From the NCBI RefSeq assembly GCF_016859285.1, contig NC_053407.1, positions 18,266,632 through 18,330,631 on the forward strand: a DNA stretch of 64,000 nucleotides. Direction: 5' to 3'. The notes beneath the pieces were generated by a model. The model saw nothing but the letters and a program-made list of their open reading frames with translations. It was not told where the DNA came from and made no database searches. The DNA comes from Xiphias gladius (Eukaryota > Chordata > Actinopteri > Istiophoriformes > Xiphiidae). This document shows positions 29,701-64,000 of this stretch, in pieces. The position numbers were made by a program, and so were the translations under genes. Position 1 is the stretch's first letter. Each line of letters starts with the position of its first letter.

Positions 29701-32700
29701 GAACATGTGACAAAGCAGAGAACAATGCTGACAGACAACAGGCAGATGCCTAACACCGAGAAATGCCTTGATATTAGGCCTCAGCAACGATACCTGGAAA
29801 GCAGCTCTGATTGCTTTCCAGGAAGCTTGAGACAGTGACAAATTTTTTATTTTTTCAAAGAAGGGCAGCAACAATCTGAAAAAATGAAAAAAAAAAAAAA
29901 AAAAGAATTTTTAAAGATTTTTGTATAATCCAATCTTGTTATTTTAGTCTGTTTCACTGAAATACTCTCAAGAATTTGGCATGAGTTTTGCCTCTAAAGT
30001 GCAGCAAATGGGCTTTCACAGTAGGACGCTCCGTGAATGCACCGCTAGGATTTATCCAAACTCCTCGATTAAAGCTCCTGTGACAAGAGACCTTGGAAGG
30101 ATAGGGTGTTATTGTCCCTCTGGATTTGAGGAGCTGGGGTCTGAATACATTGTAATCCAGCCTTAAACAATCAATTACAGGAAAATCACACTTTTCTGCA
30201 TAATTTTCTTTTTTGGCTCAGCTGTGTCCTGTTAATGATTTGTCATGTTATTTGCTTATCTGAAACCAGGAGAAATAAATTATTTATCGAGACACTGAAT
30301 CGTATGACGAACTGTACATACAATATGTATTTCCCGCTGGGATGTTTTTAAATTCTCTTAGTGTACAGAAATGTCCTGTTGACTATATCCTGGAGGACTC
30401 AATTAAAAGATGGAGTTGAAGAGACATCTAGATGTGGTAAGCAAATAGAACCAAACAAAAATTTCAAGAACAAAACCTGTTTTGTTCTTGAAATTTGTAG
30501 AAAAAAAGAAGATATGTGACTGGCTGGCAGAGAAAAAAACAGTTGATTTTTCCGGCTGTTTGATTACAAATGACCTCGAGGTATTCCACTGCGGGGAAAC
30601 AGTTTTCAGTCATTTTTGCACTTCACACCGACTTTGATTGTACTCGTGCAACTCAAACTCAAACACAGTTTTACTTAAAATGTTTTTTTTTAAACGGCAT
30701 TAAATTACTCTTGTTAACAAACTATAACAACTATACCCCTTCAAGCTCCTACTGTTAGATTGACTGGCAACAGCTCTCCATAAGGAGCTGGAAAACTATC
30801 GTTCGTTCATGAGTAAAATGGCAGAAGACATCATAGCGCTGAGGACACAGGTGGTGTCGTTGGAGGCAGAAAACAGCCAGCTCCACAGTGATCTGTCTCT
30901 GCACCAGGACCTTGGCCAGGATCGGCTGGATGATACAGTCACTGACGTCATGACCAAGGCTGAGATTGCTGACTTTATAGGTAAACCACAGTAGAACACT
31001 ATGGTTAATTTCTCAGCCATATATTATCCATCCTGGTATCCTGTTTTTAAATGAACCTGAACCCAAACCAAATGCAAAAACAACATTTGAAAATTGTTCA
31101 TCTTCATTATTCTCAGAGAGTTTTCTACCCAGCCAGCAGGTGTTGAACCTTGACTCCATGTTGTTGTGGATTTAAGGGCTCACAAAGATTGTTAATCTTT
31201 GTGAGTGTCTCTTCCCAAGCAGACTGTGCCATTTTGTGATAAGGCAGCTAATTTAGGCCACAGACCCCGTTAAGCTCTGTGGGTAGTACATCCCTTATCT
31301 CCTGAGGGACAGTTTGTGACCCTCAGCGAAAGGATGTTCCTGAAGGTCTCTCTGCTGGCATCAAAGCGAAGGAACTAGATTTAAGTCCAATCCAAATGAA
31401 AATCCAGTGGATTTCAAAGGACTAATTGACGAGTGTTTCGATTACTATTGTTGAAATGTCCGAGCCTCAGACTTAACATGTTCATCATTCTAAATTGGAA
31501 ATAGTTTCAGAGTTTACATATCAAATGCTAATTCTCATCTTAGAAATAATTAGCTGTCAACTTAAAAGTTAATCTTTAAACTTAAAATCGGCACATTCCT
31601 AAACTTATAATAACAGGATCCAACAGCTGCAGAATGAGCTGATCAAGGTTAGACGATACAATAAACAAACATTACACAAATGAAACTTAAACAATTCGTG
31701 TCAATGTATTTTAAAAGTGTATGTAGTTTTCTACTCTGTTTTCTTACCGTGTGTGTTGTGCAGAAGAATTACAGTGAAGAGGAGCTGCTAAAACTTCAGA
31801 AAGTCCAGAAGCAGCAGCCAGAGGACCTGCAGAGTCACCAGAGTCGCTTGGCAAAGATGGCAACTTTGAAGGCCACAGTCAGACAGCAGGAAAAGGTAAA
31901 CAGTGATTAACACTGTCCACTCTGCACTAATTGAATACCTATCCAATTTCTCAACAGGGAATGCTTCTGTCTATAAAATGCATATGTTAGGATAATCTCT
32001 ATACTTGTGCTAGCCCATTTTATAGGTTGGGCTAGCACAAGAATAGTATTTTAGGTTTTAAGGTCTTTGAGAAGATGGAGAAATCATTTGATAACAAACT
32101 AAGAGAGAAGAATAGACAAAGTGGTAAAGAAAGTCTGGCGTTGAAAAAGCACAGAGGTGAGTGGACTACGTGAGGCGAAAATATACACTCATTGAGCACT
32201 GTATTAGGAACACCATGCTAATACTGGGTAGGGCCTCACTTTGCTCTCAAAACAGCTTCAGTTATTTGTGGCATGGATTCCACAAGATGTTGGAAACATG
32301 TTGACATGATTGCATCAAATTATTTCTGCAGATTTGACAGCTGCACATTCATGCTACCAGTCTCCTGTTCTACCACATCCCAAAGGTGTTCTACTGGATT
32401 CAGTTCTGCTGTTTGGGGAGGCCACTGAAGTACACTGAACTCATTGTCATGTGTATGAAACCAGTTTGAGGCAACTTTTGTTTAGTGACATGATGCATTA
32501 TCAAGCTGGAAGTAGCCATTATAAGATGGCAAATCGATTTTGGCAGTAAAAGGGAAGCATGTGGTCAGCAACAATACTAATATAGGCTGTGGCATTTAAA
32601 CAATGATTCAGTGGCATTAAGGGGCCCAAAGTGCCAAAAGTTTGGCAAGAAAACATTCCCCACATCATTACACCACCAGCTTGGGGTGTAGACACAAGGC

Positions 32701-33618
32701 AGGTTGGGTCCCTGGATTCTTGCTGTTGACGCCAGATTCTGACCTTACCAGCTGCATGTCTCAGCAGAAATCCAGATTCATCAGACCAGGCTACGTTTTT
32801 CCAGTCTTCAACTCTCCAGTTTTCGTGAGCCTGTGCCCACTGCAGCCTTAGATTGGTCCTCTGCTGTTGTAGCCCATCCACCTCAAGGTTGGACGTGTTG
32901 TGCATTCTGAGATGCTTTTCTGCATACCACAGTTGTGAAGAGCGAGTTACCTGTAGCCTTTCTGTCAGCTCCAACCAGTCTGACCAATTCTCCCCTGACC
33001 CCTCTCCTCAATCAGGCGTTTCCGTCCACAAAAACATATGTGGCCGAGACACTAGGCCTGTCTCCGTGCTGTGTAGGTAAGACTGACCGCAGAACAGAAG
33101 AGATAGAGTCAGCCCTGGCAGCAGAAAACGCTCGTCTCAGAGAAGAGCTGGACAGGATTCGTAGGCAGCCCGCCCCCGTCATTATACAGCCGTCAGCACA
33201 GGTACTCCCACAAATTCATGCCAGCAAACAAACACGGTGATATGACAGTGGTGTAACACTTTCATCAAATTAAAGGGATAAGAATTAACTACAGCCCAGC
33301 ATCAAGATTAGTACATTTGGTCCAGTAGAATATATTACAATACCCAAATTTTGTCTTGCAGTTACTGAAATCTATCATGTCCCCCTCAGACAAAAGAGGT
33401 ACTACCACTCAAGGGGAGACCGAGTTTACTAAATACACTGGAGAAAGCTGAGGCAAGAGTCCAAACACTGGGGGCTCAGGTAAAAAAAAAAGATACTCTT
33501 GTACTGCAAATGTCTCATAAAATTATTAAGGTCACTGATCACTTTTTCCTTCATGGTCGATTATATGTTTTGCCAGTGTTTGCATCTATTACAGCTGGAA
33601 GAGAACTCTAAATTGTAG
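13666..33618 (+). CDS. ccdc33: Coiled-coil domain-containing protein 33 (partial, 5' exons not found)
   Basis: Exons placed by splice sites and phase: 13666-13792, 13900-13931, 13961-14029, 17789-17882, 28365-28551, 28686-28790, 28927-28955 (a 29-nt microexon), 30774-30980, 31617-31647, 31764-31895, 32063-32156, 33016-33201, 33390-33479 and 33595-33618 (ends LEENSKL, stop TAG). The first four exons give the end of a C2-like domain (TLEYFITT; SVAVLCKLELHRKLISEMG; LRLLDDLQMP). The later ones give a coiled coil whose blocks match human CCDC33 as I recall it: SFMSKMAEDIIALR, IQQLQNELIKKN, ATVRQQEKVFEKME, ALAAENARLREELD. The first seven introns close in phase, using the weak donor gtgctg at 13,932. 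The junctions 30980/31617 and 32156/33016 do not, so an exon is probably missing at the first. Human CCDC33 is reported as testis-enriched; its molecular role is unclear. Tail-to-tail with cyp11a1. Confidence 0.88.
14030..17788 (+). other. ccdc33 intron
   Basis: It lies between the exons ending KVKKLPLR and starting RPSQLSTL, which join in phase. It contains a short-loop inverted repeat at 14,549-14,576. No other gene is seen. Confidence 0.6.
14549..14576. repeat. Perfect short-loop inverted repeat (13-nt arms, 2-nt loop)
   Basis: The arms 14,549-14,561 and 14,564-14,576 (catgttgatgcac and its exact complement) are separated by two bases. It lies in a ccdc33 intron and is one of several similar hairpins in the window. 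Confidence 0.85.
18465..18780. repeat. Degenerate percomorph-type interspersed repeat
   Basis: It starts with the motif gataatcgatcaatcg and ends with attaatcgagtgaacaat, with agcttctcaaatgtgaagat and gtatttgggttttggact between. I recognise this order from an abundant percomorph repeat with TTAATCGA-rich ends. The copy is diverged and no reading frame is seen. Confidence 0.6.
20713..20731 (+). repeat. Poly-C tract (about 19 C)
   Basis: Uninterrupted C run inside a ccdc33 intron, with possible length error. Its complement is G-rich and could form intermolecular G-quadruplexes. Confidence 0.9.
21480..21512 (+). repeat. CTG trinucleotide run
   Basis: About ten CTG/CTT units (tgcttctgctgctgctg and onward) in a ccdc33 intron. 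CTG tracts can form hairpins and change in length. Confidence 0.85.
22925..23120 (+). mobile_element. Tc1-like transposon remnant
   Basis: The segment ends ggggtgccaataaattcaac then catgactgta, close to the terminal inverted repeat typical of teleost Tc1-like elements. Just upstream a frame reads TLPGRGAKNKLNDRGQRR, similar to the DNA-binding N-terminal part of Tc1 transposases. Only this fragment remains; there is no catalytic region and no opposite terminus. Confidence 0.5.
25675..25731. repeat. Perfect 26-nt inverted repeat with 5-nt loop
   Basis: The arms 25,675-25,700 and 25,706-25,731 are exact reverse complements (the inner part is ggaccaaatagtttgc) around the loop acaac. The arms are longer and better matched than chance allows. 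It lies in a ccdc33 intron and there is no sign of a larger transposon around it. A fold-back transcript or a template-switch mutation are both possible. Confidence 0.9.
26706..26772 (+). repeat. AT dinucleotide microsatellite
   Basis: About 33 uninterrupted TA units in a ccdc33 intron. Confidence 0.95.
27797..27823 (+). repeat. TAA trinucleotide microsatellite
   Basis: About nine TAA units (taataataataa and onward) in a ccdc33 intron. Confidence 0.9.
29619..29640 (+). repeat. Poly-C tract (about 22 C)
   Basis: The longest C run in the window, in the ccdc33 intron between 28,955 and 30,774. Its length is uncertain in any assembly. Confidence 0.9.
29793..29822. repeat. Short-loop inverted repeat (11-nt arms)
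   Basis: Arms cctggaaagca at 29,793-29,803 and its exact complement at 29,812-29,822, with an 8-nt loop, in a ccdc33 intron. Confidence 0.8.
30453..30500. repeat. Short-loop inverted repeat (18-nt arms)
   Basis: The arm aaatttcaagaacaaaac is followed after two bases by its exact reverse complement. It lies in the ccdc33 intron before the exon at 30,774. The perfect arms and near-zero loop resemble the 25,675 hairpin. Confidence 0.85.
31179..31205. repeat. Short-loop inverted repeat (12-nt arms)
   Basis: Arms ctcacaaagatt (31,179-31,190) and its complement (31,194-31,205) with a 3-nt loop. It lies in the ccdc33 intron where an exon appears to be missing (30,980-31,617). Confidence 0.8.
32004..32041. 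repeat. Inverted repeat (14-nt arms, 10-nt loop)
   Basis: Arms cttgtgctagccca (32,004-32,017) and its exact complement (32,028-32,041), ending about 20 bp before the ccdc33 exon at 32,063. In the transcript the hairpin would cover the region of the branch point. Confidence 0.8.
32184..33005 (-). mobile_element. Decayed Tc1-like DNA transposon in a ccdc33 intron
   Basis: On the minus strand the sequence reads as a Tc1-type transposase: NVAWSDESGFLLRH (which includes the first catalytic Asp), then VSTPQAGGVMMWGMFS, LNATAYISIVADHM, QLDNASCH in another frame (second Asp) and NPVEHLW (catalytic Glu). Stops and frameshifts break it, for example right after the open stretch that ends near 32,519. 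The end near 32,184 (acactcattgagcactgta) resembles the terminal inverted repeat of this family. The 5' part of the transposase and the opposite terminus are missing; homology stops about 10 bp before the ccdc33 acceptor at 33,015. The element cannot be active. Confidence 0.88.
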
Positions 33619-34219: not shown

Positions 34220-37128
34220 TTACCAACTAGTTTGTAGAGGTTTCAAAGTCAAAATTACAGGCCTGTCCGGTAAGAGAATGAGCTCAAAGATGCTCTGCAC
34301 TTCCAGATGCCGCTGTTTCTCCACTCTGAAGTTCTCAAGCATCTGCAAATTCCAAAAATAATGCACACAGTTAATAAGATGTGTAAATGTGCCACAAATT
34401 ATGGTGAAACTGCTCTTTATTCTTTGTATATCTTACATGGATAAGGAAGATTTGCATCTCTGTCTCAGCTATTCTGCGTCCTAAACATTGACGGGGGCCA
34501 AAGCCAAAGCCGAGGCTTCTGAAGTAGTTCGTCTGTGTCCTCAGCCAGCGGGAAGGCTGATACTGCCCCGGATGACTAAACACCCTGGGGTCTCTTCCCA
34601 TTGCATATAGTCCTAACTGAACCAAAGTCTAAACACAAACAAAAAATGATGACCATTGGCCCTGAGACTGCACAGTTTCTTTTCCAAAAAAAAAAAAAAA
34701 AGAAAAAAAAAAGAAGCTCAAATACAAAAACATGATTAGAAGATTTATAATTTTAACTGCCTCTTACCCCAGCTGGGATGTGGTAGTTTTGAATAATGAT
34801 ATCTTCTGCTATGTATCTTTGCAAGCTCACTGCAACCGGGTGTAACCTGAGGATTGAAGGTGAAAATTCTGTATTAAAGGAGACTTATTAATTTTGTGGT
34901 AGTAGATGGTAAAATTGAGACAATTACAAATGGTCATTATCAGAGAAGCCGCACTAGGTGTTAGTGGAAAATGTATTATTACAATTGTGAAAGAGAAACT
35001 GTTTGAAAAAATTATTAGCATGTCTTTTATTAGATTAGTTCTAACACAAGGTGCAATTTGTCCTTTAGAGTGCATCAGAAGAAATTAAAGTCATTTAGTG
35101 CACCTATAATCTACTGCCTTCCATCTCTGCTGTATCATTGCTAGCATTACATATGCTGTGCAACCATTTCTGTCACCTCAGGGTTTCCTTCAGAGCTCCT
35201 TTAACCAAGGGAATCCGCTTCAGCAACTCCATTATGTCTCCCTGGCTTTCAGCCCGAGCAACAGCCACCTCCGCCCTCAGCTCCTCCTGGAGGCTTGGGT
35301 TCTTGGCTAGTTCATACAATGTCCACAGCAGTGTTATAGAAGTCTGAAACACACAAGCAGAATTAAGCGGTCTTAAAAAACCAAAAAAAAGAAGTCACAA
35401 TCTGGAAAGAAATTATTTATTTCTTACTGTATCTACTCCTCCAGCCATCAGTTCAGTGACACTGGCCTTGATGTCTTCAATGGATAGCTTGTCCAGCATG
35501 AGCAGGCTGGCTAGGACTCCTGGGTATTTCTTTGGAGTGCCAGTCTCCTGACGCAACTGTCTGTAGATGTTCTGAATACAGCGGTCCGCTGACGCAACAA
35601 AAGGATATAAATGTTATAAGAAACTGCACCATATACAATACAAACGTAACTATGGAAGAGTGGTTTCAATTGAAAGAACTAAAATCTCAACTTAGTGTTC
35701 TGCTGATACATCTTGAAAACATCATGACATCAAAACTATAATGTAAATGTTCACCCTGGTTGTCCTCTGAGTCCTACCATGGTTGAAGATCCCATCCCAA
35801 GCCTCCACATGGTTCCGCCACACCGCCATTCCAGTCTTTCTCATCAGAGCAGGAGGTATGTACAGCATGGGAGAGGTAGTCTTGAACATGAGGGTGATGC
35901 AGTCAATGAAATGTTGAGCTTCAGGATCAATGAAGTCATGCATCAAACCCAGACGCTCGCCATACAGGACTGAGCTCACCGCTGTGTAGGACAGAGTAAG
36001 CAATATGAGAGGAAAACACTGGCCTACACGGTGAGAATAATAGATATCAAGAGAGAGAAAAGTCAGTCTTACATTCTAGTGCATATTTAAAGAGTTCTTG
36101 AGAAAGGTCAGTAGTCCATTTCTTCTGGCCACTTCGCTCTATCTTTTTGTGAAGTCTGGCCACAAAATCCTGGCCTACTTCGTCCAGCAAAGGCACAAAG
36201 TTTTCCAGCACTTTCGGGGAAATCACCTCCTTGTTGAGAATCACCCGGTTTGATCTCCAGTCTTCTCCATTCCTGTGGGGAGATTGAATGTTATATTTAT
36301 AACTAGCCAGGCAACTAGTAGGCACAGCCTTGTAGCACCTGTGGTTCCAACAAAGTGTCACAATATTAGTAAAACAGAAATTATACAGGTAGAAGCAGAT
36401 AATAAAACCACATACTTTAGTAAAACTCCATATTTGCGATTCCTGTAGTCTCTGTATGCTGTCCACGGAGCCACATTCAGCCTTTTAGGATAATGGCCCT
36501 CTGCTTTGAACAGGATGGCAGCATCCTCAGGATTGATGATATTTACACTCTCATAGTAACCTATTTTTTCTCTGACATACACAAAATAAGAGAATAGAAA
36601 GGGTGAAAATGCCATATCAGCTCCTTGTTTTTAGAAAACATGACCTTGTAGATTATTGGTCATTTCATGAACAAAAAATGTTTATATTTGGACTAGAAAA
36701 GAGCTTCAGACTAGTGATGTAAATCAAAGCCATGAATGTTTTGTCTACTTACGTAGTTTTAGTTTATTACTTAAGATAGACAGTGGACGAGTACCATTAT
36801 GCAGTTATTTTACAGTTTTATTTAAAGATTTATGGAAACTACCTTATCCTCCATACCTGTAGATGGGTCCAAAAGTGTTGAAGTTCTGCAACATAATGCG
36901 GTGAAGGTTTCTGAAGCCATCCAGTTTCCAGAAATTGTACAAGTTGACCAACCCATTCTTCCACAGTCCAGGAATCTCACTGAAAGGCCTGACAATATTG
37001 CTGCTTTCTGAGAGCGGCTTTTTGACCACTGGCATACTACTGCTGCAGCGCACACCTGATGTGGTCCACCTCTCTATCCAGGACAGGGACAGTGCCACAG
37101 GGTTGCGCCACACGCTACTCCTGGCCAT
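34220..37128 (-). CDS. cyp11a1: Cholesterol side-chain cleavage enzyme, mitochondrial (P450scc)
   Basis: CYP11A1 cleaves the cholesterol side chain to give pregnenolone, the first step of steroid synthesis, in the mitochondrial inner membrane with electrons from adrenodoxin. Coding exons in order: 36857-37128, 36416-36571, 36073-36272, 35778-35981, 35428-35588, 35177-35343, 34768-34846, 34437-34628, 34220-34342. All GT-AG junctions close in phase and give 517 residues (human 521). An Arg-rich presequence ([20 protein letters not shown]) leads to PFSEIPG and FGPIYR. The oxygen-binding helix AGGVDTTS spans the exon 5/6 junction; KETLR is the ExxR motif; [12 protein letters not shown] is the haem Cys loop. 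All key residues are present, so the gene looks functional. The open frame extends seven codons upstream without an ATG, so the start is the ATG at 37,128. ccdc33 follows tail-to-tail, and stoml1 lies upstream on the same strand. Confidence 0.97.
36641..36649 (-). promoter_or_regulatory. Possible SF-1/Nr5a-type site in cyp11a1 intron 1
   Basis: The minus strand reads ACAAGGTCA here, matching the CAAGGTCA core bound by SF-1 (NR5A1) and ERR-type receptors. SF-1 is a known activator of CYP11A1 in mammals. One short motif in an intron is weak evidence. A related CAAGGCCA lies at 37,441-37,448, about 310 bp upstream of the start codon. Confidence 0.25.
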
Positions 37129-37558: not shown

Positions 37559-40500
37559 CTATTTCTTAAGTAGCTTTATGAGTTCCTCCAGCTTCATGGC
37601 AGTCTTAATGTCTCCCTGCATTTTAAGTCTGCCACTGGTGTATGCAGCAAATGGTCGTAGCCCGCCCTGGAACATGGCCAGAAGGTCACTGTCACTCATA
37701 CTCAGTGTCACATCAGCCTCTCGGCACAAGGACCCTGCTCCAACTGCGCCGCTGCCTTCAAAACACACACACACACACACACACACAGTAACTAATTTAA
37801 CTTTACTTTTGCTTTTATGTTTCAAATAACACTTGAACAATATCTTATAATTGCTGTATATTTACAGGAATACATGAACCATTACCTTGGCTTAAATCCA
37901 CATAATAACTTTGATTTTGTCCATCTCCCGAGCTGATGTCAAACTGGAAACAGGCCCCAACCTGTTTAACCAAAGTTTCAGAAAGCAGGACCTTGACCCT
38001 GCCAAGCAGCTCTTCAACAGAACCTGGTGTGGCCACAACAGCCTGGGGGACACTGCTGAGCTCATTTGTAAAGGTTATGCTGTCTTCTGGGGAGTAAAGG
38101 CATATGTTTATTTTACAACATAATCATAATGGGTACATGTTGTACAGAACCAGTTGTGAGTGTGGGGCCATACCTTGTTGAGGCTGTGAACTGCCACTGT
38201 GGCTTAGAAAGTGCATGGCCAACTGCTGAATGGGGCCAGTGATGCCTTCCAGTCCATGCACAGAGGGAGGTATGATGAGGGGCCCAGAGGGGGCTTCTTC
38301 TGGAGCTTTCAGGAGAGAGCCCAGGGTAAGCTCTACCCTGTCCACCTCCAACCCCCAGGGCTGAGTCATCTCATTAATGTCCATCTGTAGACAGCAAGAA
38401 AGGATGTAAGTCTGAGCTGAACCAGTGAAAAGCCAGCAGAGAGTAGCTCCAATGCAGTCTCACCCTGAGATATTCTCCCAGTTTAACCCTCTCAGTTTGC
38501 ACCTCCCGGACAGTCTTCTTGGCCAGGCTGTGGGTCAAAGCATTCTGTGCTGTCATCCTGGTTGAGGCGTTCAGGTCCTGGACTGATACTACTGACATGA
38601 CGGGGTTCCAGATCCTGAACTGGATGTCTGCTCCCACTGACAACACACCGCCATCCCGAGTGGTCACCTGCAATAGCAAAATAACATTTTATATCTAACA
38701 TGAATTCTGAATTTAATTGGACCTAATACTTTACAACTTGCCACAATTTAAAGAATATGGAAACATTACCACTTCATTCTTACAGCAGGTATAGACTAAG
38801 CAATATTCACCGGTTAATACTGAATATACACTGCTCAGAAGTAAGGTCTTGGTATCATCAAAAAACAACAAAAAATTAATAAAGCACACAAAAACATTTT
38901 AACGCAACTAAACTTTGCTGCCGACATGAAAGCATTTTCAAATAAACTGCTGGCAGGATGAGTTTACAACTTTGAAGTATCACACACCAACGAGAGCTCT
39001 CCCAGTATCTGATTACACTCTTCACCATCACACTGAACAGTGTACCAACAACGCCATCTTTAGGACAAAGTAAAATATACAGAACTAACAGAAACGATTT
39101 AACTCCATACGTTTGAGGAGCAACGAAGACTCCTCAGCTTAAGTGTGTAGTGCAAGACTCACATATTCAACATGTTACATGGTGACACAAGACACTGTGC
39201 TTGAATCTGTCTGCCTGTGATTAAAACAAAAATATCTTTGTGTTGAAAGCACAGGTATTTTCGTACATAAATTATAATTTTGTACATAAATTATTGTTAT
39301 TGCATGTTATTTGGAGTACTGTATGAATGAGTTACATTGCCATTGTTCTCTGTGCAGCTGAAAGACCCACTCTATGTTTCTTGTAAGCTGAATGATCAAC
39401 CTCTAAGCATCTTAATCAATATCTATCTTCATTTCACCTGTTTGAAATGTTACTTCTTTTTTCCCAGCCTATGCAATTTTAATGTTTCAGTGCTTAATGA
39501 CTTCAACAAGTCGCCCATAACAACGGCTGACTAATGATGAATGGAGTATGGTGGTTTACCTGGCAAGGAGGGATGTTAAAAGCACGTGTGCGCAGGTCCA
39601 CTCTCTGCCACTGGTCAATGAGGGGAAGCAGAAGGACAATACCGGGGCCCTTCGGAGGACAAACTCGCCCCAGACGAAACACTGCTATCCTCTGGTAGTT
39701 AGGAACCGTCTGCATACAAAATGAGTCGAAGTTGACTGTTTTTATTATCAGCAAGTGAGTGGAGATGCTGTGGGAGTAACTGATGAGATCACTTCAGCTT
39801 ACTTTCAGTACAAACCATCCTGTTATAGGGAAGGTTATGAAGGTGCACATGTAGACGAGAAAGATGACAACTAGGTTGCAAATCCAGGACAGCCATCCCT
39901 GGGAGGTATCTTAAAGAAAAGAAACAATCAAACAAAGGAATATTTGTTTTTAAGGGCATTTTCAGTAAACCAGTCATAAGGAGAATAACTCAGCCTGAAT
40001 AAAACTGTCGTATGATGTTGTCTGTGGCTTTGAGGGGAGCTTTCTGAGAAAATGACTCAAATGACATCACTTGCGCGATCTTGACTTGGCCTTGGAGACT
40101 CCAAATTTTTCATGGTTTTGCCAGGCAGGAAGGGTCGTGTGAAAACATTACACTACTGAACTGCATTATGAGAAAAGTGAGACCCTGTGTTTTTGGAGCC
40201 TCACTCCCCATCGGGGCTAAATTTCAGGACCTCCCTTTTTCTCATTATGCCCATGTTGGGTTTTTGTTATTTTTAAGTCTGTCACATACAAGTCCTCAAG
40301 CTTATATTAAGTGCATTACTATGTAAATTGTCTGGTGTCATTTGGGAAACATTGTACGTATTTTCTGTGCGTGTGTACTGTGTCACCTGGCTGCAAAATA
40401 AAGTTCAAGGTGACTTTGAAACAAATACTATGGAATGCGCAATAGTAATACCTTAAACGGTCATAAATGGAAGAACACTCATGTTTAACCAGTAAAGGGA

Positions 40501-42463: not shown

Positions 42464-44796
42464 TTAGTTTTTGAACATGTCACACAGCAGCTTCTCCATG
42501 GGTGTGCTGCCAATGGTCCTATGAAAGAACAGCTGCTCTATTTTCTCAGAGCTCACAAAGCGGAGGGACGGCAGCAGAAGTAACAGTCTCCCAAACCTTG
42601 ATGGACAAGAACAAAGTAGAATGAACTTAATGTTTCTATACTTCCAGTTAACATGACTAACGGGGTTAGACATACCCCATCTCATTATGTTTGAAAATCT
42701 TTGTATTCTGTCAGAAAATAAAGATGCAGCAGGGTCACCTGGCACTCTGGCTGGGGTACATTGAATGGACATGCTGCCCCAGCAACACCTGCGACTGGTC
42801 CTGCAGATTCTCCACCTGCTCTGGGTCTTTGAGGCTGCATGTCTCTGCTCCAGGGAGTAAAAAAGCGGACATTAGTTAGACTGTCCATTCAAAATTGAAC
42901 ACCAATCGCTGGATAAATAACTCCTTACCTGGCTTGAACAGTACAGTGGCCTTCAGGCAAGCAAACTCAGTAGGGTCCACAGCCAGGGCCTTGAAGCGAT
43001 TGAAAACCTCTTCCAGGATGCGCAGGTCAGCTGTGGGGAGGCTGATCTTGGCCTGCTGTGTAGGGGAAAGATCTGGCAGAGACAGAAGAGGACAGCTGTC
43101 CATGGGCAGGGACCACTGGATGGCACAAAGGAGGAACATCTCACTCCAAGCTTCTTCAAGGAGAATCACCTGAGGATATCAGAGAAATACAGTATATGTG
43201 TTGTAAGTCTCAGCCATGATTCAGGTTTGTTTAAATCGCTTCAGTAAATATACAAAAAAGTTATGCCGATCAATCTCACCTGGTCTCGAAATGGCAGGTG
43301 AGCAAAAACAGGCAAATTTTTTGCCCACTTTACAGACATGAAGAGGAGTCGTGCCGATGTCTCGTATACATTCTCTGAACAGTTGGAGGTGTACGGGGAC
43401 ATGCGAAAGTCAGAGGGAGTCCGATCTCTCTCTGAATCGTTTGTTGTCACATCAATATTCTCCTCCACTGTACATTAGAGAAAGAGGGTCACTCAAATTT
43501 TCAGGGCTTCTGGGAGTACAATATTATTCTGTTAAAAGGCATTACAATCAAGACAAGTTTTTGTTACTCAGAGGAAAACCCTATTGTTTATCACCTAGGT
43601 AGGCAAAAAGAAATCATAAAGTGTTTTTTAAAAATGATTTGTCCCATGTCTGACTACATACTTGTTGTGACCAGATCCATCAAAATGTATCATCCTTCAT
43701 ATGATCTCACCATCCTCAGGTTCCAGTTTTGCACAAGTCTCAGCAGTCAGCAGGCTGACCATAAAGCGGTGGCTGTTATTGGGGTTGCTGCAGGGCTGTG
43801 TGGTGGCGGAGGTGGCGACAGACGAGGTGACCAGAGGTCTGCAGACGGCCGATGAGTAAGCGGCAGAGGAGATGAGTTCCCGTGTGGTGGCCAGGTGCTC
43901 CTTTTTAGTTTCCGCACTTACGGAGTCTAGACTGACATGGGCTCTGCTTCGGGGCTGTCGCTCATTCTGCACAGCTGCCAAGGGGACAGGTAAATAATAT
44001 ATTGTGTCGGAACAGTCTAGGCTATACAGGATTTGTGTTGGACGTTGCTAGAAAGGATGTATACACAGAGAGTATACTCTACAGTCAACTTATTCAGAGT
44101 TTTCTCACCATCTTTGTTCATGCCTGCTTGGAGACATTTCTTTAGTCGACAAGCTTGGCACTGGTTCCGGTGAGCCTTGTCAACAGGGCAGCTGCCAGTT
44201 CCAGCCTGACACCTATAAAAAACAATTCCAAATGAAGACAAGTACGTTAAAATGCGAACAGTTAATTGCCATATTAGTTTTATTTTCTTTTATTTACATG
44301 TATCAAATCCAGTCTGCGTCTTGCTCACCTATAGATGAGTTTTCGTCTTACACTGCGCTTGAAGAAGCCACTGCAGCCGTTGCAGGCATAGATGCCATAG
44401 TGTTTACCACTGCTTGAATCAGAGCACACTTTACAAAGCAGGCTTTGGCCAAGTGCTTTACCTGGGACTGAATTTTTTTCTGTAGAGAACAGATAGAAGC
44501 AATGAATATTTCACATAATTTCACACTCGTTTAAGGATAAATGGAGGACTTAATTGTACAGATAGGTTTTTCATGAAATTATTTATTTACTAGTTTTGTC
44601 TTCATATTCTGTTCCGTTCTATTGAATACACAATACATAAAAAGAATATCATGGGCATCATTAATCTGTCCACATCTTTTTCTGTACAGAGAATATATAT
44701 TACAATATTTGGTGGCTCACCTGACAGAGTTCCATCTGTGCAGTCGTCAGAGACATCTGAAGAAAACAAGTTCATTTTGGTCATGTGGTCCTCCAT
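42464..44796 (-). CDS. nr2e3: Photoreceptor-specific nuclear receptor (PNR, NR2E3)
   Basis: NR2E3 is an orphan nuclear receptor of photoreceptor nuclei that, with CRX and NRL, promotes rod genes and represses cone genes. Coding exons in order: 44721-44796, 44329-44479, 44109-44212, 43711-43974, 43280-43467, 42929-43169, 42739-42844, 42464-42596. They close in phase to 420 residues (human 410). The DNA-binding domain starts at [18 protein letters not shown], with P-box [11 protein letters not shown] and second zinc finger [20 protein letters not shown] variable hinge follows. The ligand-binding domain has [29 protein letters not shown], the helix 3-5 signature [12 protein letters not shown], and the AF-2 end [11 protein letters not shown], which matches the human C-terminus. 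The start is the ATG at 44,796; there is no further in-frame coding upstream. No disabling change was seen. Confidence 0.96.
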
Positions 44797-53979: not shown

Positions 53980-55459
53980 CAACAACAACTGTAGCACAAC
54001 CCTGGAGGAGGGCCCCTCCTGTGTATTTAACCCAAGAATTTCTCCTATCTGACCTAAAGGGTTTTCTGGGGTTCGTTCTTGCTGATGTGAAATTGGTGTC
54101 AAAATCATTTTTCACCTCTTTTATTATTCAAATGATAGTCATACATTGTCTTTTTGATACTGTCAAGACACCTTAAAACCTTGGAAGACTGCCCCTCTTG
54201 CATATTAATTCTCGAGGATTTATCCAATCTGATCTAAAAGGTTATCTGGGGTTTGTTCTTGCTCACTGTCGAGACACCTTCATGTCTTAAAAGACCGCCC
54301 CAAATGTATATTTTTTCCCAGGGATTTCTTTGATTTTAACTAAAAGGTTATCTGGGGTTCATTCTAGCTCACTGTCAAAACACCTTCACATTTTTAAAGA
54401 TGGGCCTTTCTTGTGTATTTCTTCATTCAGACCTAAAAGGTTTTCTGGGGTAGTTTCTTACAGACTGTTAAGATACCTTCATGCCTTGGAAGAGGGCCCC
54501 TCTTGTGTATTTCTTCCCAAGGATTTCAACAATCTAACCTAGAAGGTTTTTTGGAGCTTTTTTTGCACACTTGGGCTTGGGTTTTCTGGGGTTGGTTCTT
54601 GCTCTCTGTCGAGACGCCTTCACGTCTTGGAATAAGGCCCCTCTTGTGTATTTCTTTCCAGTGATTTCTCCAAACTGAGCTAAAGTGTTTTCTACATGTT
54701 CTAGTTGCTCACTTGTGGGTGTTCTCGAAAAAGTGTCTTTTTAATTCCTTTGAAGAGGGCCCCTCTTGTGTATTTTTTTTTCCCAAGGATTTCTCCGATC
54801 TGAACTAAATGGTTTTCTGGGGTTTTCTTCTCGCTCACTGTCAATAAACCTTCACGCCTTTTGACAAAGGCCCCTCTTATGTATTTCTTCTCAATAATTT
54901 CTCCGATCTGATCTAGAAGTTTTTCTGGGGTTCGTTCTTGCTCACTTGAGTGTTGTGTTTGAAACATTTTTCTTTTTTTCCCCTTCATTTATTGCATAAA
55001 CATCGGTCATCATTTGCCTCATTGTTACTTTCAAGACATCGTCAAACCTTGGAAAAGGGCCCCTTTTAGTTCTTGCCCACTTGGGTTTGAGTTTGAGCTT
55101 ATGGTTGAGCTCCATGTTTACAGTTGACAACTGAATCTAAGTAGAATTTACATTAAGAAAAATAGAAATACATCTATATGTTTCTGTGTATCATAAAAAT
55201 ATAAAACTAAACATAACTATGTACACACATACCCATACATTCCATAGTCATACATAAACATTTGCAAACACAACTTTACAGTTACATGCAAACACTTTAA
55301 ATTCGAGGGTGGTGTTGAAACAGTTGTATTGCGTAAATATTAGTAATGATTTGCATTGAGGTTACTCTCAAGACACTTTGGATTAAGGCCCCTCTTGTGT
55401 ATTTCTTAAGGATTTCTCCAATCTGACCTAAAAGATATTCAGGGGTTTGGTCTTGCTCA

Positions 55460-55904: not shown

Positions 55905-56330
55905 GTCTTAGAACGTGTTTTGACAGTAGTTTGAGGGATAAACTGATTTAGTATTTGGTGGTCAAAGGTCAAGGTCACTGTAACCTCACAAAACACGTTT
56001 TCGGCCACAACTCAAGAATTCGTACGCTACTTATGACACAATTACACGCAAATGTCTGATAGGATTAAACAATGAAGTGATGACAGTTTATATCCAATAG
56101 GTCAAAGGTCAACTTCACAGTGAAATATCATAATGTTCTGCAAAAACACTTTTCTGGCCATTATACAACACCATGACTCGGAACAGACAGTGAGATTGTG
56201 ACCATATTTGCTGCAACTTGACTGGTTGGCAGAGGCATACAACACCATGAAACACAGTGAGATTTGTAGACATATTTTTTGCAACTTGACTGGTTGGCAG
56301 AGGCATACAACCGCAAGGCGGTAATTCTAC
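55905..56330 (+). repeat. Percomorph-type interspersed repeat with DR1 motifs
   Basis: Blocks such as ggtcaaggtcactgtaacct, cacaactcaagaattcgtac, tgttctgcaaaaacactttt and gcagaggcatacaaccgcaa are in the order I recall from an abundant percomorph repeat. A segment of about 70 bp (gcaacttgactggttggcag onward) occurs twice, near 56,213 and 56,280. It splits the tandem array. It carries ggtcaaaggtcaaggtca (55,960-55,977) and a perfect DR1. Confidence 0.65.
56099..56111 (+). promoter_or_regulatory. Perfect DR1 nuclear receptor motif in repeat DNA
   Basis: AGGTCAAAGGTCA on the plus strand, within the interspersed repeat. With 55,728-55,740 and 55,960-55,977 it makes a cluster of DR1-type sites in under 400 bp, all inside transposon-like sequence about 11 kb upstream of nr2e3. 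Confidence 0.4.
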
Positions 56331-58115: not shown

Positions 58116-59779
58116 TTTTTATTTTAACTTTTCTATTCCTGCAATTTGGAGCTAAGATTCCTGATGTTCCTCGCATTTTTTCCCAGTTAGAGGGTTTTTA
58201 TGTGGAGTTCTTTATTTGGACCAAATTTCTTAGCGTCATAGAGTGTCATATGTTGATAGTCCTCCAAGACATTTTTTTTGTTTCGTATATAAATAAAATA
58301 AATTAGACATTAATTTCTGTGTGAAGTCTTGCTACATGTTATTGCCATGGCTGCTGTTTTTTTTTTTTTTTTCTGGGTGCTCATTTCTTCCTTAGAGACA
58401 TGCAGGTTGGACAAGCTGGAAAAGCTAAACTGTCAATATGTGCAAAAATAGCTGTCAATGTATTTATTTTTCTGTTTTTGTTAGCTTTGTGATGGCAAGC
58501 TAATTTTCCTCAGTTTTGTGAAGAAGAAAAAAAAAAAAAAAAAAAAAAAATCAGGGTGACAATGTCTGTACACCAACATAATTTTATTACATTTCATTCC
58601 AAGAACACAAGCTACAGCATACTGGCAATGTTAATATTTAAATTAAAAGTTTCCATTTTAAATTTTGCTGTCATCTTGCAGTCTTCAAGTGCAATTCATC
58701 ATGGCATTACAGTTTGGTACTTTGGTATCCTACAAGGAAGGTTTTTGTTAACATTTCTATTTTCTGACTGCAAAATACTCAAAATGTAGAATAAAAAGAC
58801 CATTACTCAAATAGCTTTTGCAAAAAATTTAAAAAAAAGAAAATGTAGGCATGTGATAAGTCCCTGAGAAAGCATTTGAGTTTGCACACACTGAAGACTG
58901 GAGGAACAAAATATTAAAGATTTTACACCACTTTACATGCCTCCACACAAGATGTTTTTCAGAATCAGCTACGAAGGCAACTCTGAACTTAAATAGTTCA
59001 AACACTCAGAAAAATCTCATAATGTTAGTCCATCCAGCATCCAGCTTTGAACGTCTTGTTACTCGTGTGTTTGCAGTGTCCAACAGAGAGAGGCTGTGCC
59101 TGGATGCCATGCCTTGAGAAGAAAGAGAAGCAGAAATATCAGTGTGTTATAAAGCTGACATTATGAGAAAGAGCTCATTGTTCTGTTTAAGTATGCCAGC
59201 ACTATGCTCTTCAAAGGTTACGGATAGGAAAAGCAAAGTTCCTCACAAGCTAGCAGCGAAAGTCCTCCAAACGAGGGATAGCCATGTCCACACTTGAGGT
59301 CTGCTTCTCATCACTCCACAGTCTCTCTGCTGCACTACTTGCCCTTGCCTGTGATTTTGGGTGCAATCGGTGATTATTTCGAATCATTTCATGGGATTGT
59401 TGCTACACTGGGGTGGGGATTTCAGGGGTCTTTTTAATGTAGCACCAAAGAGAGTGAGATTGGTGGCATCAACATATTCTCCCCACATCCAGATCTCACC
59501 CCCTATCACCAGCTTCTTCTGTTCCTCAGTACCTGTGAGGGGATGATAACAGAACAGGGTTTATTTAAGAATGAGCTGGTAATGAGTTTACTACTAATCC
59601 GAATTTTCACTTCAATATTAATGCACCACTTCAAGTCAAGCTCAGGGAGTCAATGTTTAAATGGGCCTCTATAATTGACAGTCCCCATTTGCAGGTGTCA
59701 TTGCCGGACAAGTACCATCACCAGCACCTAACTGAGGCAGGTTGTAATAGTGTGTGATATTACTTGGCCATGCACACAC

Positions 59780-59960
59780 CAGAAAAGTTCTGTGTCTGCA
59801 CACTGTAGTAGTTGCGTCAGTCCTGGCCGTAGGAAATGCGGGTAATGTACCACGGTGAAGCCAGCAGGACCCTCTTTCCAGCTTTGGTGATCCTGCTGAG
59901 CTCTGCCCGATCACTAGCCGGGAGGCCCTTCCAGATGTGCAGCGCTGTGTCCTTAGGAAT
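59780..59960 (-). pseudogene. Hexosaminidase exon 11, copy A (with nonsense codon)
   Basis: The acceptor tcctgctcag leads into IPKDTALHIWKGLP, ELSRITKAGKRVLLASPWYI, TRISYGQD, then TGA where family members have Trp, then RNYYSVQTQNFS and the donor gtgtgt. It is 181 nt, one codon shorter than human exon 11. It joins in phase to exon 12 (codon G|GT), so this copy belongs with exons 12-14. Confidence 0.85.
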
Positions 59961-59999
59961 CTGAGCAGGATGATAAAAACCACATTCTGTCTTGCCCTT

Positions 60000-61440
60000 C
60001 TGTGATAAATTGTTACTGACCTGTCTGCCTTCTGTATTTTTATATTTATTGATCTGCTTACATTTAGCATTTTATATTTCAGCAAACAGTCACATATAAA
60101 AATCCTTAATAAGCTCTTACCAACAAGGGTAAGCTTTAACCCAGACTAGGTTCACAGAAATGGTGCTCCTCCTATGGGGCAAAGCATCTGAACACCTTGG
60201 AACATGCTATGCACAGCACATCACGGTACTCTATCCAAGAAGAGTAGCGAACCAGGGAAACCGAATTGCATAAATCTATACTTGCAGTCATGTCCCTTGA
60301 CATACTGTAAAAACATTCTTTCTTAGGAAGCAAATTCTTATACAGCCTTTTAATTTCCATAATGCAGAGAGCATATTCATGTTAATTTTTAACTGACAAT
60401 TAGACTTTCATCCTTCTTATTGTCTGTATTCTTTGATTAATCTTTGTATTTAAATTTGCATTGAATATCTCCACATTTTTTCTACGTGAAATCACCAACA
60501 ATTATGTTGCAGTGAAATGTTAGGAAACAGCTGACTACATTTTTGCAACCAACAGAAATATCCATTAAGTTGCAAGTTGTTGCAGTTGTTTTAGCTGGAA
60601 TGTTTAGTAACTCATCATGATGACGTGGTTTATTGGTTGTTTATCTGATAAACATCTTTTCCTGGGCCTTTGCTTTTATAAATCTGTTTCAAGGAGCTTT
60701 GTAAAAAAGCTGCCAATAGAAACATTTTTATTCTTCTGTGTTTAGGGGAAACAGTGTGCATGTTAGCCATGGGGCTATACATTAGGCATTGTGAGTACAA
60801 ACCACAGCAATCACACCTCTCTGTAGCTGTGTCCCAATTCCATACTACATACTAATTCTAAATTGGGTATTCTTTGTGATGTGTTTACACTGGAAAATCC
60901 TGATCTGAGAAAACTGAGGAGCAGCAGACAGCTGGAAAGAGTTTTAAGCAAATTGCGGGTGGTGGTGACACAGCTTCAGGAAACCTAAGAAGAAAAAAAA
61001 AAAAAAAAAAAAAGAACTTCCAAATCATTGGAAAAACATGTTGCTGTCACTGTGAGGTTTGACTGACGTGCATCAGCACAAGTCTTATATCATTTCCTGT
61101 CAGCACAAAATTGTAAAGTACACTGATATCTATATCTTGAAATTTGTACACAGTACATTCTGTATACAATTAGTATACCATATAGAAATGGGACCCATAG
61201 TATGTCTGTAACATTAATGCATATACAGCAGTCTTCACTGCCACCTAGTGGTACAGCAACACACGTAACATTCTGTGTTGCATTAAAAGCCAAAAGGTTT
61301 CACCATCTATTTCCTGTAATTTACAGGAGACCAAGTTTTAATTATGTAAATTATAATTAGAGACATGAACCACAGCAGTTAATACTATTTAAACTAGCCA
61401 CAGCACACAGGTTGTTCTCTGACACTTGAAGGCAAGGGGC
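60000..61440. other. Interval between the two exon 11 copies
   Basis: No further hexosaminidase exon was found here on either strand. It contains an A run (60,990-61,012) and otherwise nondescript A/T-rich DNA. If the two copies came from two genes, their 3' and 5' parts have been lost here. Confidence 0.5.
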
Positions 61441-61444
61441 CACA

Positions 61445-61595
61445 CAGTGCAGTAGCAGGCCCAGTTGTGTATGGGTCCCTGCTGGTCCAGATATCACGGA
61501 GAGGCCAGAATCACCCTGATTCCGGCTTTAACCACCCTGCGTACCTCGCACAGGTAACAGCCCTCTCTCCATACCTCCACCACTGATAGAAAGCT
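61445..61595 (-). pseudogene. Hexosaminidase exon 11, copy B (divergent, with nonsense codon)
   Basis: Frame: VVEVWREGCYLCEVRR, VVKAGIRVILASP, TGA in place of the Trp codon, YLDQQGPIHNWACYCTVWPL, AFK. It aligns along its length with human exon 11 (VWRE, TKAGFRALLSAPWYL, EPLAF) but is clearly different from copy A. Copy B has lost part of the region before KAG. A gtgtca donor would leave it out of phase with exon 12. Confidence 0.75.
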
Positions 61596-64000
61596 GTGCT
61601 GCAACACAGTGCTATAGACTATCAGACTTACATGAGGTGGTTGTGTGATACGTAGCTTCGTGTTATCTGACAATTTACTGTTTAAAATAGCTGGTCAGTT
61701 GTTTCGAACCACTAAACTTGCTGACGTTAAAATTATATTGTTAGCAAAAAAAATATTTAAAATTGTAGGTGGATTATCAGCCTATGCTGAAATGTGGGAC
61801 AGAAAAGATCAGATTTCCTTCTCTAAGCATTTACAACAAAGATGTTTGAAAATATTATGTAAAAATAAATGCTACATGTTTTATATATTACATTTTAAAT
61901 ATCTCCTTAAGTGAATGCAGATACTTGGACACAGTTTAAAATAGCTGAAATAATAAAAAAAAAATAAAAAAAATAAAATAAAAAACAAACAACAGTTATA
62001 AGATTTTTTTTTTTAAATCTCTGTATCTGCACCATGCATCACATGCAATACTTAAACTTTACTTTAGACTAAACACATGATGGTGCTGCAATGACATGTC
62101 ATAATTTCAGTTATTGTGTAAATTACTACTTATCTGTTAAAGTCCATTTTATACGCATTTGCAGAAGAAATATTTCGAATCATCTTTTAAACGATGTCTA
62201 AAAGGTAGGTGAGTCTATATGAACGCCGCTGATAGAAATATGGATACAGTGTTATTTGTTGGGCTGTACTTCCTCTTTCATGGTCATCAAAAACATCCTG
62301 CCACATGATAGATGTCACTTCAGCTGAAGCTGAAGTAATATTCACAAAGCTGGAAATACAGACAATAATGACATTTGTAACATCGGTGTGTTGGACGGTG
62401 TATTTCCCCTCTACATTGTATGTTCCCCTTCACAACCTACTTCTCCATGTAGAATGCCTCCAGTTTGGTGAAATCTCCTCCAAATCCCATCTTCTGCATG
62501 AATGCAAGTACATCATGGTTGGATCTCCTATGGAACCAAGTCATTTAACTAAACATAATTGCACTGATTGTTTAAGTTCACTTTGAAAAAGCTTAAGCTT
62601 ACTTAAACCAAACTAAAGTTGTTCCCTTTTTATAATTATTATTATTTATAATAATAATAATTATAAGACATATACTTACAACAACCACCTGGGTCAAGAT
62701 ATAAACTTTGTTTTTTCTTGTTTCTAATTACTTGTATTTTTGAACAAACAAAACAGCAGCAGGCACAGGAAAGGTGACATACCTTCTGCTGACATTCCTT
62801 GCACTTTTTCGTTGCCAAAATCCGTAGCACTGTAAACAAACAATAGTGATCGAAACCAGGAAATCCTGGTTGAGATCAACAACTGTCAGGAGGCATTTAA
62901 ATGATCTGTTACATTTGAGCCTACCAGCAGGAAAAGTCAACCTCATCCCCTCCTACGTGGCTTTCGGAATCAGGAAACACTGATGACACTTCCTCACTCC
63001 ACTCTATAGTCTCGCCATAAACTGGCAGGTGGAGGGTAACTCTGGATTAACAGGGCCAGAAGTACCTGAAGGGGTTCCCCCTCTGTAGCAGGGAATAAAC
63101 AGGTCAGACTGCCCTGGGGAATAAATGGTAATCTATCAGATTTAGTTCAGAATTTAGTTTAAATACATTTCTCGCATTGTCTGTTGAGGACAGACATTTG
63201 ATCCCACTGATGTAGCCATAAGAGTCCTCCAGCTAAGAGATGAGTCTAGCTCAAAATTCAGTACATCTTGTTGCTGTTATTAGTTTAAAAATATCACGCA
63301 TAATAAAAGGCACTTTTTCTGAAGATCAAGGAGCTGAGATCATTTGGATAAAACTGTTGTTTTTCAGTAAATTTGGCTCATTTGGTCTTTGAATTTTACC
63401 TTTTCCCCACGATTTGATGTGGCTGGGCGAATCAAACTCAGGAAGGACTCTTATACCCTGCCGCCTGGCATATGAGATCACTCTTTCACATCTGACTTTA
63501 TGTAGATGTGAGTCATTGGATGGAAAGCCCCCTGAATCAGAGCCAGAAGCCTTTGTTCAGGGTGGATGCAACTTTTCAGCATTTTTTTCTACCTCATGAA
63601 TCCACATGCAGTTAGCCTGGTTAAAAATCTAAAATATGATAAATCTAGGATATAAAGTAGCCGAGTTTCATTTCATTAAAATCAAGATTCAAATATTTGC
63701 AAAGCAAATTATGATGAATATGCAGAGTCATGGTGCATATGATGGGAGCTTGCTTATTCTTCCTTATTCCTTAGTAGCTCTCTTCGTCAGCATGACACGC
63801 CCTTACTGAAAAGGTTTGGAAAGGTGCGGCTCCGGTAAGGGAATGAGGAGTCATCAACAATGTGCCAATGAAACACATTGAACTTACTGTAGGCCACTGC
63901 ATCCTAACAAGAAAACATATCTGTTAATACCATTGATGACAATTTGATCAATTGAACGGAAAGCTGAAGTTCAGATTATGTCATCTGATTATTACCAGAG

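Follow-up and report, generated by a model that had tools for sequence, protein, structure and literature searches.

Human HEXA and HEXB encode the subunits of the lysosomal GH20 hexosaminidases, the alpha-beta dimer Hex A and the beta-beta dimer Hex B, and it is on the division of labour between these two genes that Tay-Sachs and Sandhoff disease rest. The residue pair N423-R424 of the alpha subunit, as against D452-L453 of beta, mainly decides the use of charged substrates (MUGS, GM2), and the alpha GSEP loop matters in the binding of the GM2 activator, the role of the IPV loop, which is not in beta, being unconfirmed (PMC3587417). The window, by which we mean the whole stretch of 64,000 nucleotides (nt) of swordfish (Xiphias gladius) DNA analysed here (C8:18266632-18330631 of a 691-Mb assembly in 1298 contigs), carries on its minus strand, at 59,025-63,903, the collinear exons 6-14 of a dead hexosaminidase gene, hexa, and elsewhere the same assembly holds an intact lysosomal hexosaminidase gene, hexb. 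In humans Asn-Arg (NR) lies in one gene and Asp-Leu (DL) in the other, whereas here hexb holds both, on what appear to be alternative exons, 11a and 11b. While lysosomal GH20 hexosaminidases and tandem mutually exclusive exons are both well known, the new part is that hexb, the gene that survives, is predicted to carry an exon switchable between alpha and beta type.

Modified HexB is said to have been the subject of work by Matsuoka in 2011. The engineered modHEXB, a beta subunit with the changes DL452-453NR and RQNKLDS312-318GSEPSGT, is designed as one gene to clear GM2 (PMC13198282). The predicted hexb-11b product would come close to this in both respects, with NR and a loop near to GSEPSGT; however, modHEXB is engineered and constitutive, whereas hexb-11b is natural, lies on a putatively switchable exon and reads GSKPSGT in the loop. 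In common with human HEXA and HEXB, this hexb has the 14-exon layout (PMC2492878), the catalytic motif, the loop and the specificity residues. As in described mutually exclusive tandem duplicated exons (PMC9741552), the copies are homologous and in tandem; double inclusion here breaks the frame, and the splicing is predicted. The word hexosaminidase is absent from the main text of PMC9741552, and none of the titles and abstract openings listed in searches of open-licence papers describes a hexosaminidase exon-11 pair, although automated fish genome annotation may list such hexb isoforms. In the coral reef fish Acanthochromis polyacanthus, 21 genes showed differential splicing from February to March, hexb among them; of the counts for that period, 5 fall under mutually exclusive exons and 14 under exon skipping, and the main text does not give the type for hexb (PMC8933327).

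The intact hexb (C20:20128657-20134744) comprises 14 exons and an extra exon 11, with AG or GT at all 28 of its internal borders, and yields open isoforms of 548 amino acids with 11a and 550 with 11b. Both exon copies (175 nt for 11a, 181 nt for 11b) are open, have AG/GT borders and share the same phases; because both are of length 3n+1, use of a single copy keeps the frame, and frames with both copies, or with neither, run into stops. Over 58 aligned codons the copies differ 17, 12 and 37 times at codon positions 1, 2 and 3, respectively, with a nonsynonymous divergence (dN) of 0.33 by the NG86 method and a synonymous divergence (dS) that exceeds the range of that method. Given this third-position excess, the dN and the out-of-range dS, the two exons are, as read from their codons, long diverged and both under protein constraint. 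An assembly duplication artefact is ruled out for the pair, 66 of the 174 aligned bases being different.

The first copy, 11a, reads YLDLISY, with DL at the positions of human 452-453 and a short loop as in human beta. The second, 11b, reads YLNRISYG, with NR at the positions of alpha 423-424 and a loop two residues longer than that of 11a and one short of that of alpha. Tyr450, Ile454 and Tyr456 (human HEXB numbering), residues linked to the binding of substrate and to contact within the dimer (PMC2492878), are retained in both isoforms. Exon 8, which the two isoforms share, has YSGSKPSGTFGP where alpha has YSGSEPSGTFGP and beta has YSRQNKLDSFGP. Compared with PDB chains, 11a scores highest with wild-type beta (82.1 bits, against 75.5 for 5BRO and 53.2 for alpha), 11b with 5BRO (72.1, against 67.8 for wild-type beta and 61.4 for alpha), and exons 8-9 with human alpha (150.1, against 143.7 for 5BRO and 134.6 for wild-type beta). 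The chain of 5BRO is a HEXB with NR and GSEP, retaining LDS after GSEP, and to judge by its letters it is presumably a modified-HexB structure.

We consider it probable that, hexa being dead, hexb uses either 11a or 11b, never both, and so produces two subunit types, and that hexa thereby became dispensable. Use of 11a would give a beta-type subunit (with Asp-Leu where human beta has residues 452-453) and use of 11b an alpha-type subunit (Asn-Arg and the longer loop, by two residues), both of them carrying the alpha-like GSKPSGT loop from exon 8, such that a single gene could, through dimers of the two products, provide enzymes resembling Hex B, Hex A and modHexB. Exclusivity would be enforced at least by the frame, inclusion of both exons or of neither leading to a truncated protein. 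Steric crowding is an unlikely cause, because the intron separating 11a and 11b is 705 nt long, and a splice regulator would be expected for the choice between the exons; a scan of the hexb introns for the TGCATG motif gave nothing useful. With both types of active site supplied by hexb, hexa would have become dispensable and decayed, its loss being tolerated, on this proposal, because hexb covers both. Both exons are predicted to be spliced in vivo, the 11b product may hydrolyse GM2 or sulphated substrates, and the exon pair of hexb may have permitted the loss of hexa.

Several observations weigh against this proposal. The exon 8 loop of hexb, GSKPSGT, is one residue apart from the alpha GSEPSGT, with K for E. 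At the 27 exon-11 sites which separate human HEXA from HEXB, 11b resembles HEXA at 5 and HEXB at 7 (for 11a the numbers are 2 and 12), so that its alpha-likeness is, at the level of these residues, limited to the NR pair and the loop length and does not extend to the whole exon. By eye, 11b seems to have a weaker 5' splice site (GTTTGT) than 11a (GTCAGT), and the acceptor tract of 11b is an AT/GT-rich repeat. Two human beta-alpha hybrids with similar changes gave no human GM2AP-dependent GM2 hydrolysis (PMC3587417), in contrast to the reports on modHEXB. Finally, Hexa-deficient mice bypass the defect via sialidase (PMC6772114), and because such a bypass exists, compensation need not come from hexb at all. 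It would be somewhat surprising, but is conceivable, that hexa simply decayed with the sialidase bypass covering its loss, the second exon 11 of hexb being real but irrelevant, for example tissue-specific or little used. The viability of adult zebrafish hexb mutants (PMC6772114) is in keeping with this; however, 11a and 11b differ, and in the same way, at exactly the two residues separating alpha from beta, and the third-position excess between them indicates constraint.

In the same zebrafish mutants more than 99% of the activity on the neutral substrate MU-GlcNAc is lost although hexa is untouched (PMC6772114). This fits the notion that hexb carries the load, but a need of alpha for beta would lead one to expect the same, and it does not decide the matter because in mammals loss of beta removes Hex A too. 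Should the proposal of two subunit kinds from one gene be true, hexb would show how the HEXA/HEXB division can exist within a single gene, would represent a counterpart, tested by evolution, of the engineered modHEXB, itself a one-gene therapy candidate protein, and would account for the loss of hexa. The proposal also bears on the zebrafish as a model of GM2 disease.

The gene in the window is read as a unitary pseudogene of hexa and, taken alone, is an ordinary one. A preliminary description of the window had recognised equivalents of exons 6-14, and their place, strand and order are borne out by reading combined with tblastn. The pseudogene runs past the window end, beyond which lie exons 2-5 and what is left of exon 1, and it has, as hexb does, two tandem copies of exon 11. 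Its exons, in window-style coordinates, are as follows.

About 65,880-65,700, minus strand: exon 1 remnant, placed by reading, then shuffle test.
64,867-64,763, minus strand: exon 2, 105 nt, placed by reading.
64,644-64,579, minus strand: exon 3, placed by reading, then shuffle test.
64,304-64,258, minus strand: exon 4.
64,107-63,996, minus strand: exon 5, final 5 bases (63996..64000) inside the window; net +1 frameshift.
63802..63903, minus strand: exon 6, open, end set by homology; matched in the PDB by human beta (E 1e-13) and alpha (E 4e-12); donor GT changed to GG.
63400..63531, minus strand: exon 7, 1-bp deletion near 63,485, placement ambiguous.
62925..63113, minus strand: exon 8, 8-bp insertion at about 62,983-63,009, placement ambiguous; GGDEVDF with the catalytic DE; loop YRGGTPSGT.
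62441..62527, minus strand: exon 9, open over its 87 nt, with AG and GT at the borders.
62274..62349, minus strand: exon 10, net +3 in length; GG in place of the donor GT.
61426..61598, minus strand: exon 11a, beta-type copy with short loop and YLD; TGA at 61,496-61,494; acceptor tgttgcag.
59780..59960, minus strand: exon 11b, alpha-type copy with longer loop and TRISYG; TGA at 59,819-59,817.
59446..59532, minus strand: exon 12, 4-bp deletion near the 3' end.
59244..59348, minus strand: exon 13, TAG at 59,252-59,250; donor GT changed to GA.
59025..59112, minus strand: exon 14, own stop codon included.

When the hexb protein of the same genome was searched against the window by tblastn, 8 of the 10 exon copies were matched (6, 7, 8, 9, 11a, 11b, 12 and 13; E 1e-15 to 2e-4, some of these values being joint for linked pieces). 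Exons 10 and 14 had no such match on the window and were placed by reading; in comparisons with HEXA, HEXB and hexb they score better than 995-1000 of 1000 shuffles. Exons 1-3 likewise had no tblastn match and were placed by reading. None of 1000 shuffles was equally good for exon 1 against HEXA, or for exon 3 against either HEXA or HEXB; exon 2 is not significant alone (36 to 216 of 1000 shuffles), and jointly with exon 3 it is (0 of 1000). A side observation is that exon 2 of hexb (C20:20129083-20129240) is, at 158 nt, longer than the 105-nt exon 2 of the pseudogene and includes a stretch rich in Arg and Gln, GGAKRQRQGQSKSRR.

The lengths of the exons in the pseudogene and in hexb are, in nt, 102 and 102 for exon 6, 132 and 133 for exon 7, 189 and 181 for exon 8, 87 and 87 for exon 9, 76 and 73 for exon 10, 173 and 175 for exon 11a, 181 and 181 for exon 11b, and 87 and 91 for exon 12, with an alignment identity of 837/1385, a figure that is approximate only. 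Of the two exon-11 copies of the pseudogene, 11a is matched by tblastn with hexb 11a (E 2e-4) and with HEXB (6e-7), its best phmmer match being human beta (2e-6), and 11b is matched by tblastn at E 2e-14, its best phmmer matches being 5BRO (8.0e-12) and human alpha (8.2e-12). Chance similarity is ruled out for the 11a copy by its order between exons 10 and 12, its intact acceptor and these E-values.

Ten lesions, comprising stops, insertions or deletions and lost donors, are distributed across exons 5-13, and besides these the remnant of exon 1 showed no ATG in frame; the introns are retained while the coding frame is broken by several lesions. The preliminary description had already reported the 1-bp deletion, the 8-bp insertion, the TAG, the surviving catalytic Asp-Glu (GGDEVDF, exon 8) and two lost donors, which prove to be those of exons 6 and 10, both GG; all of these hold, the exact placement of the deletion and of the insertion being ambiguous. 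Its claim of TGG to TGA twice, given without positions, fits one TGA in each of the homologous exon-11 copies. To these we add the exon 5 frameshift, the 4-bp deletion in exon 12, the donor loss of exon 13, exons 2-5 and the duplicated exon 11. The decay of a real, spliced hexa gene, which it proposed, is supported by the exon alignments, the lesions, the shuffle tests and the synteny. We give very little credence to a functional hexa in which the lesions are assembly errors, since ten lesions of different kinds lie over exons 5-13 and the hexb of the same assembly is clean.

The assignment of the two loci depends largely on their neighbours. An Ariadne-domain exon lies about 12 kb upstream of hexa exon 1, its best PDB match being ARIH1 (E 1e-39), and the window itself contains three syntenic neighbours.

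34371..36630, minus strand: CYP11A1-like P450 exons, matched by Pfam p450 in two pieces, one slightly below cut-off; best PDB match CYP11A1, E 2e-25.
37559..39793, minus strand: Band 7 and SCP2 pieces, for which the name STOML1 is suggested by the domain pair.
42876..44289, minus strand: nuclear receptor pieces with zf-C4 and Hormone_recep domains, which we take to be NR2E3.

In human, ARIH1, CYP11A1, STOML1 and NR2E3 are found together with HEXA at 15q23-24. Around hexb, ENC1 (C20:20114255-20116021, 90% over 589 amino acids) and NSA2 (C20:20142531-20144692) flank the gene, and both of these, like HMGCR, are neighbours of human HEXB. Because ARIH1, CYP11A1 and the Band 7 and SCP2 pair mark a hexa locus, the neighbourhoods point to the window locus as the orthologous hexa locus and to the C20 locus as hexb. 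In agreement with the latter, the 11a isoform of hexb gives 62.8% to HEXB and 57.2% to HEXA. Against the former, PKM and CELF6, two further neighbours of human HEXA, gave no match within the 60 kb searched at the hexa locus; a part of HMGCR gave none in the 160 kb tested around hexb. The closeness of the pseudogene to HEXA and HEXB is itself mixed from exon to exon: HEXA outscores HEXB for exons 1 and 14 (47 vs 36 and 59 vs 52, respectively) and for the exon 8 pieces, and HEXB outscores HEXA for exons 2+3, 4 and 10.

The preliminary description had also raised the possibility of another intact copy, for instance a duplicate from the genome duplication. No intact hexa was found in the assembly by searches that score only the best candidates, and so could miss a distant or unassembled copy; they gave 4 and 23 matches. 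The 23 matches came from a whole-genome search with the hexb protein, and 22 of them fall at the hexa and hexb loci; the sole hexb-like match elsewhere (C18:3555944-3556174) has an E-value of 0.05 and two stops, and a second hexa from genome duplication is thus unsupported. As a candidate for the job of hexa, the intact hexb with its alpha-type alternative exon 11 would be a better answer than a second hexa. A homologue of GM2A is present at C23:2676704-2680497 in three exon pieces, all of them free of stops (E from 1e-23 to 4e-10). Separately, a family search for the GM2A fold matched only C10:12379524, a locus other than that of this homologue.

The alpha/beta gene duplication has been assigned to a vertebrate ancestor and the vertebrate genes have been described as universally having 14 exons, without mention of a duplicated exon in the accessible part of that source (PMC2492878). 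A more speculative reading, possible but in our view less likely than not, is that the 11a/11b pair predates the hexa/hexb split. On this reading an ancestral vertebrate gene would have switched by splicing between beta- and alpha-type sites, the human lineage would have kept one exon per gene, giving Hex A and Hex B, and this animal would have kept both in hexb and so could lose hexa, hexb-11b being a natural modHexB. The loop length separates 11a from 11b alike in hexa and hexb, and at the 23 sites where the two hexb copies differ, hexa 11a agrees 8 times with hexb 11a and once with hexb 11b (sign test p 0.039). Both points tell against the alternative, which we regard as unlikely, that the exon pairs of the two genes are independent, or one of them copied by conversion, with the NR/DL contrast convergent. 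This alternative draws on the agreement of hexa 11b with the hexb copies, which is neutral (4 vs 5), on a Fisher test of site sharing with p 0.13, and on trees that do not separate the hypotheses. These exon-11 trees comprise 63 columns. For the four exons of this genome the approximately unbiased (AU) test gives p 0.64 for grouping like with like, 0.46 for duplication within each gene and 0.19 for the third tree. With the human exons added, six set trees were compared, and the one that groups HEXA with the 11b copies and HEXB with the 11a copies ranks first (AU 0.69), followed by independent duplication (0.51), a third tree (0.48) and the remaining three (0.12). The unconstrained best tree of the six exons agrees with the HEXA+11b and HEXB+11a grouping, with supports of 36-42%, whereas the bootstrap consensus sets hexa 11a apart and leaves the two 11a copies unjoined, with supports of 33-48%. 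Two zebrafish genes, and one each for Fugu and Tetraodon, have been tabulated (PMC2492878); the single genes of the latter two fit, without proving, a wider loss of hexa.

Other features near the loci include, on the minus strand of the window at 32519-33007, an open frame of 162 amino acids which by eye has the look of a Tc1-type transposase, with no Pfam match at E 0.001. At 56187-56311 there are about 1.9 copies of a 68-bp unit, and at 54291-54988 similar-looking short open frames recur close together on both strands, perhaps as a local repeat that has diverged. The minus strand at C8:18354284-18357577, which lies upstream of hexa and arih1, holds a single open frame of 1098 amino acids.

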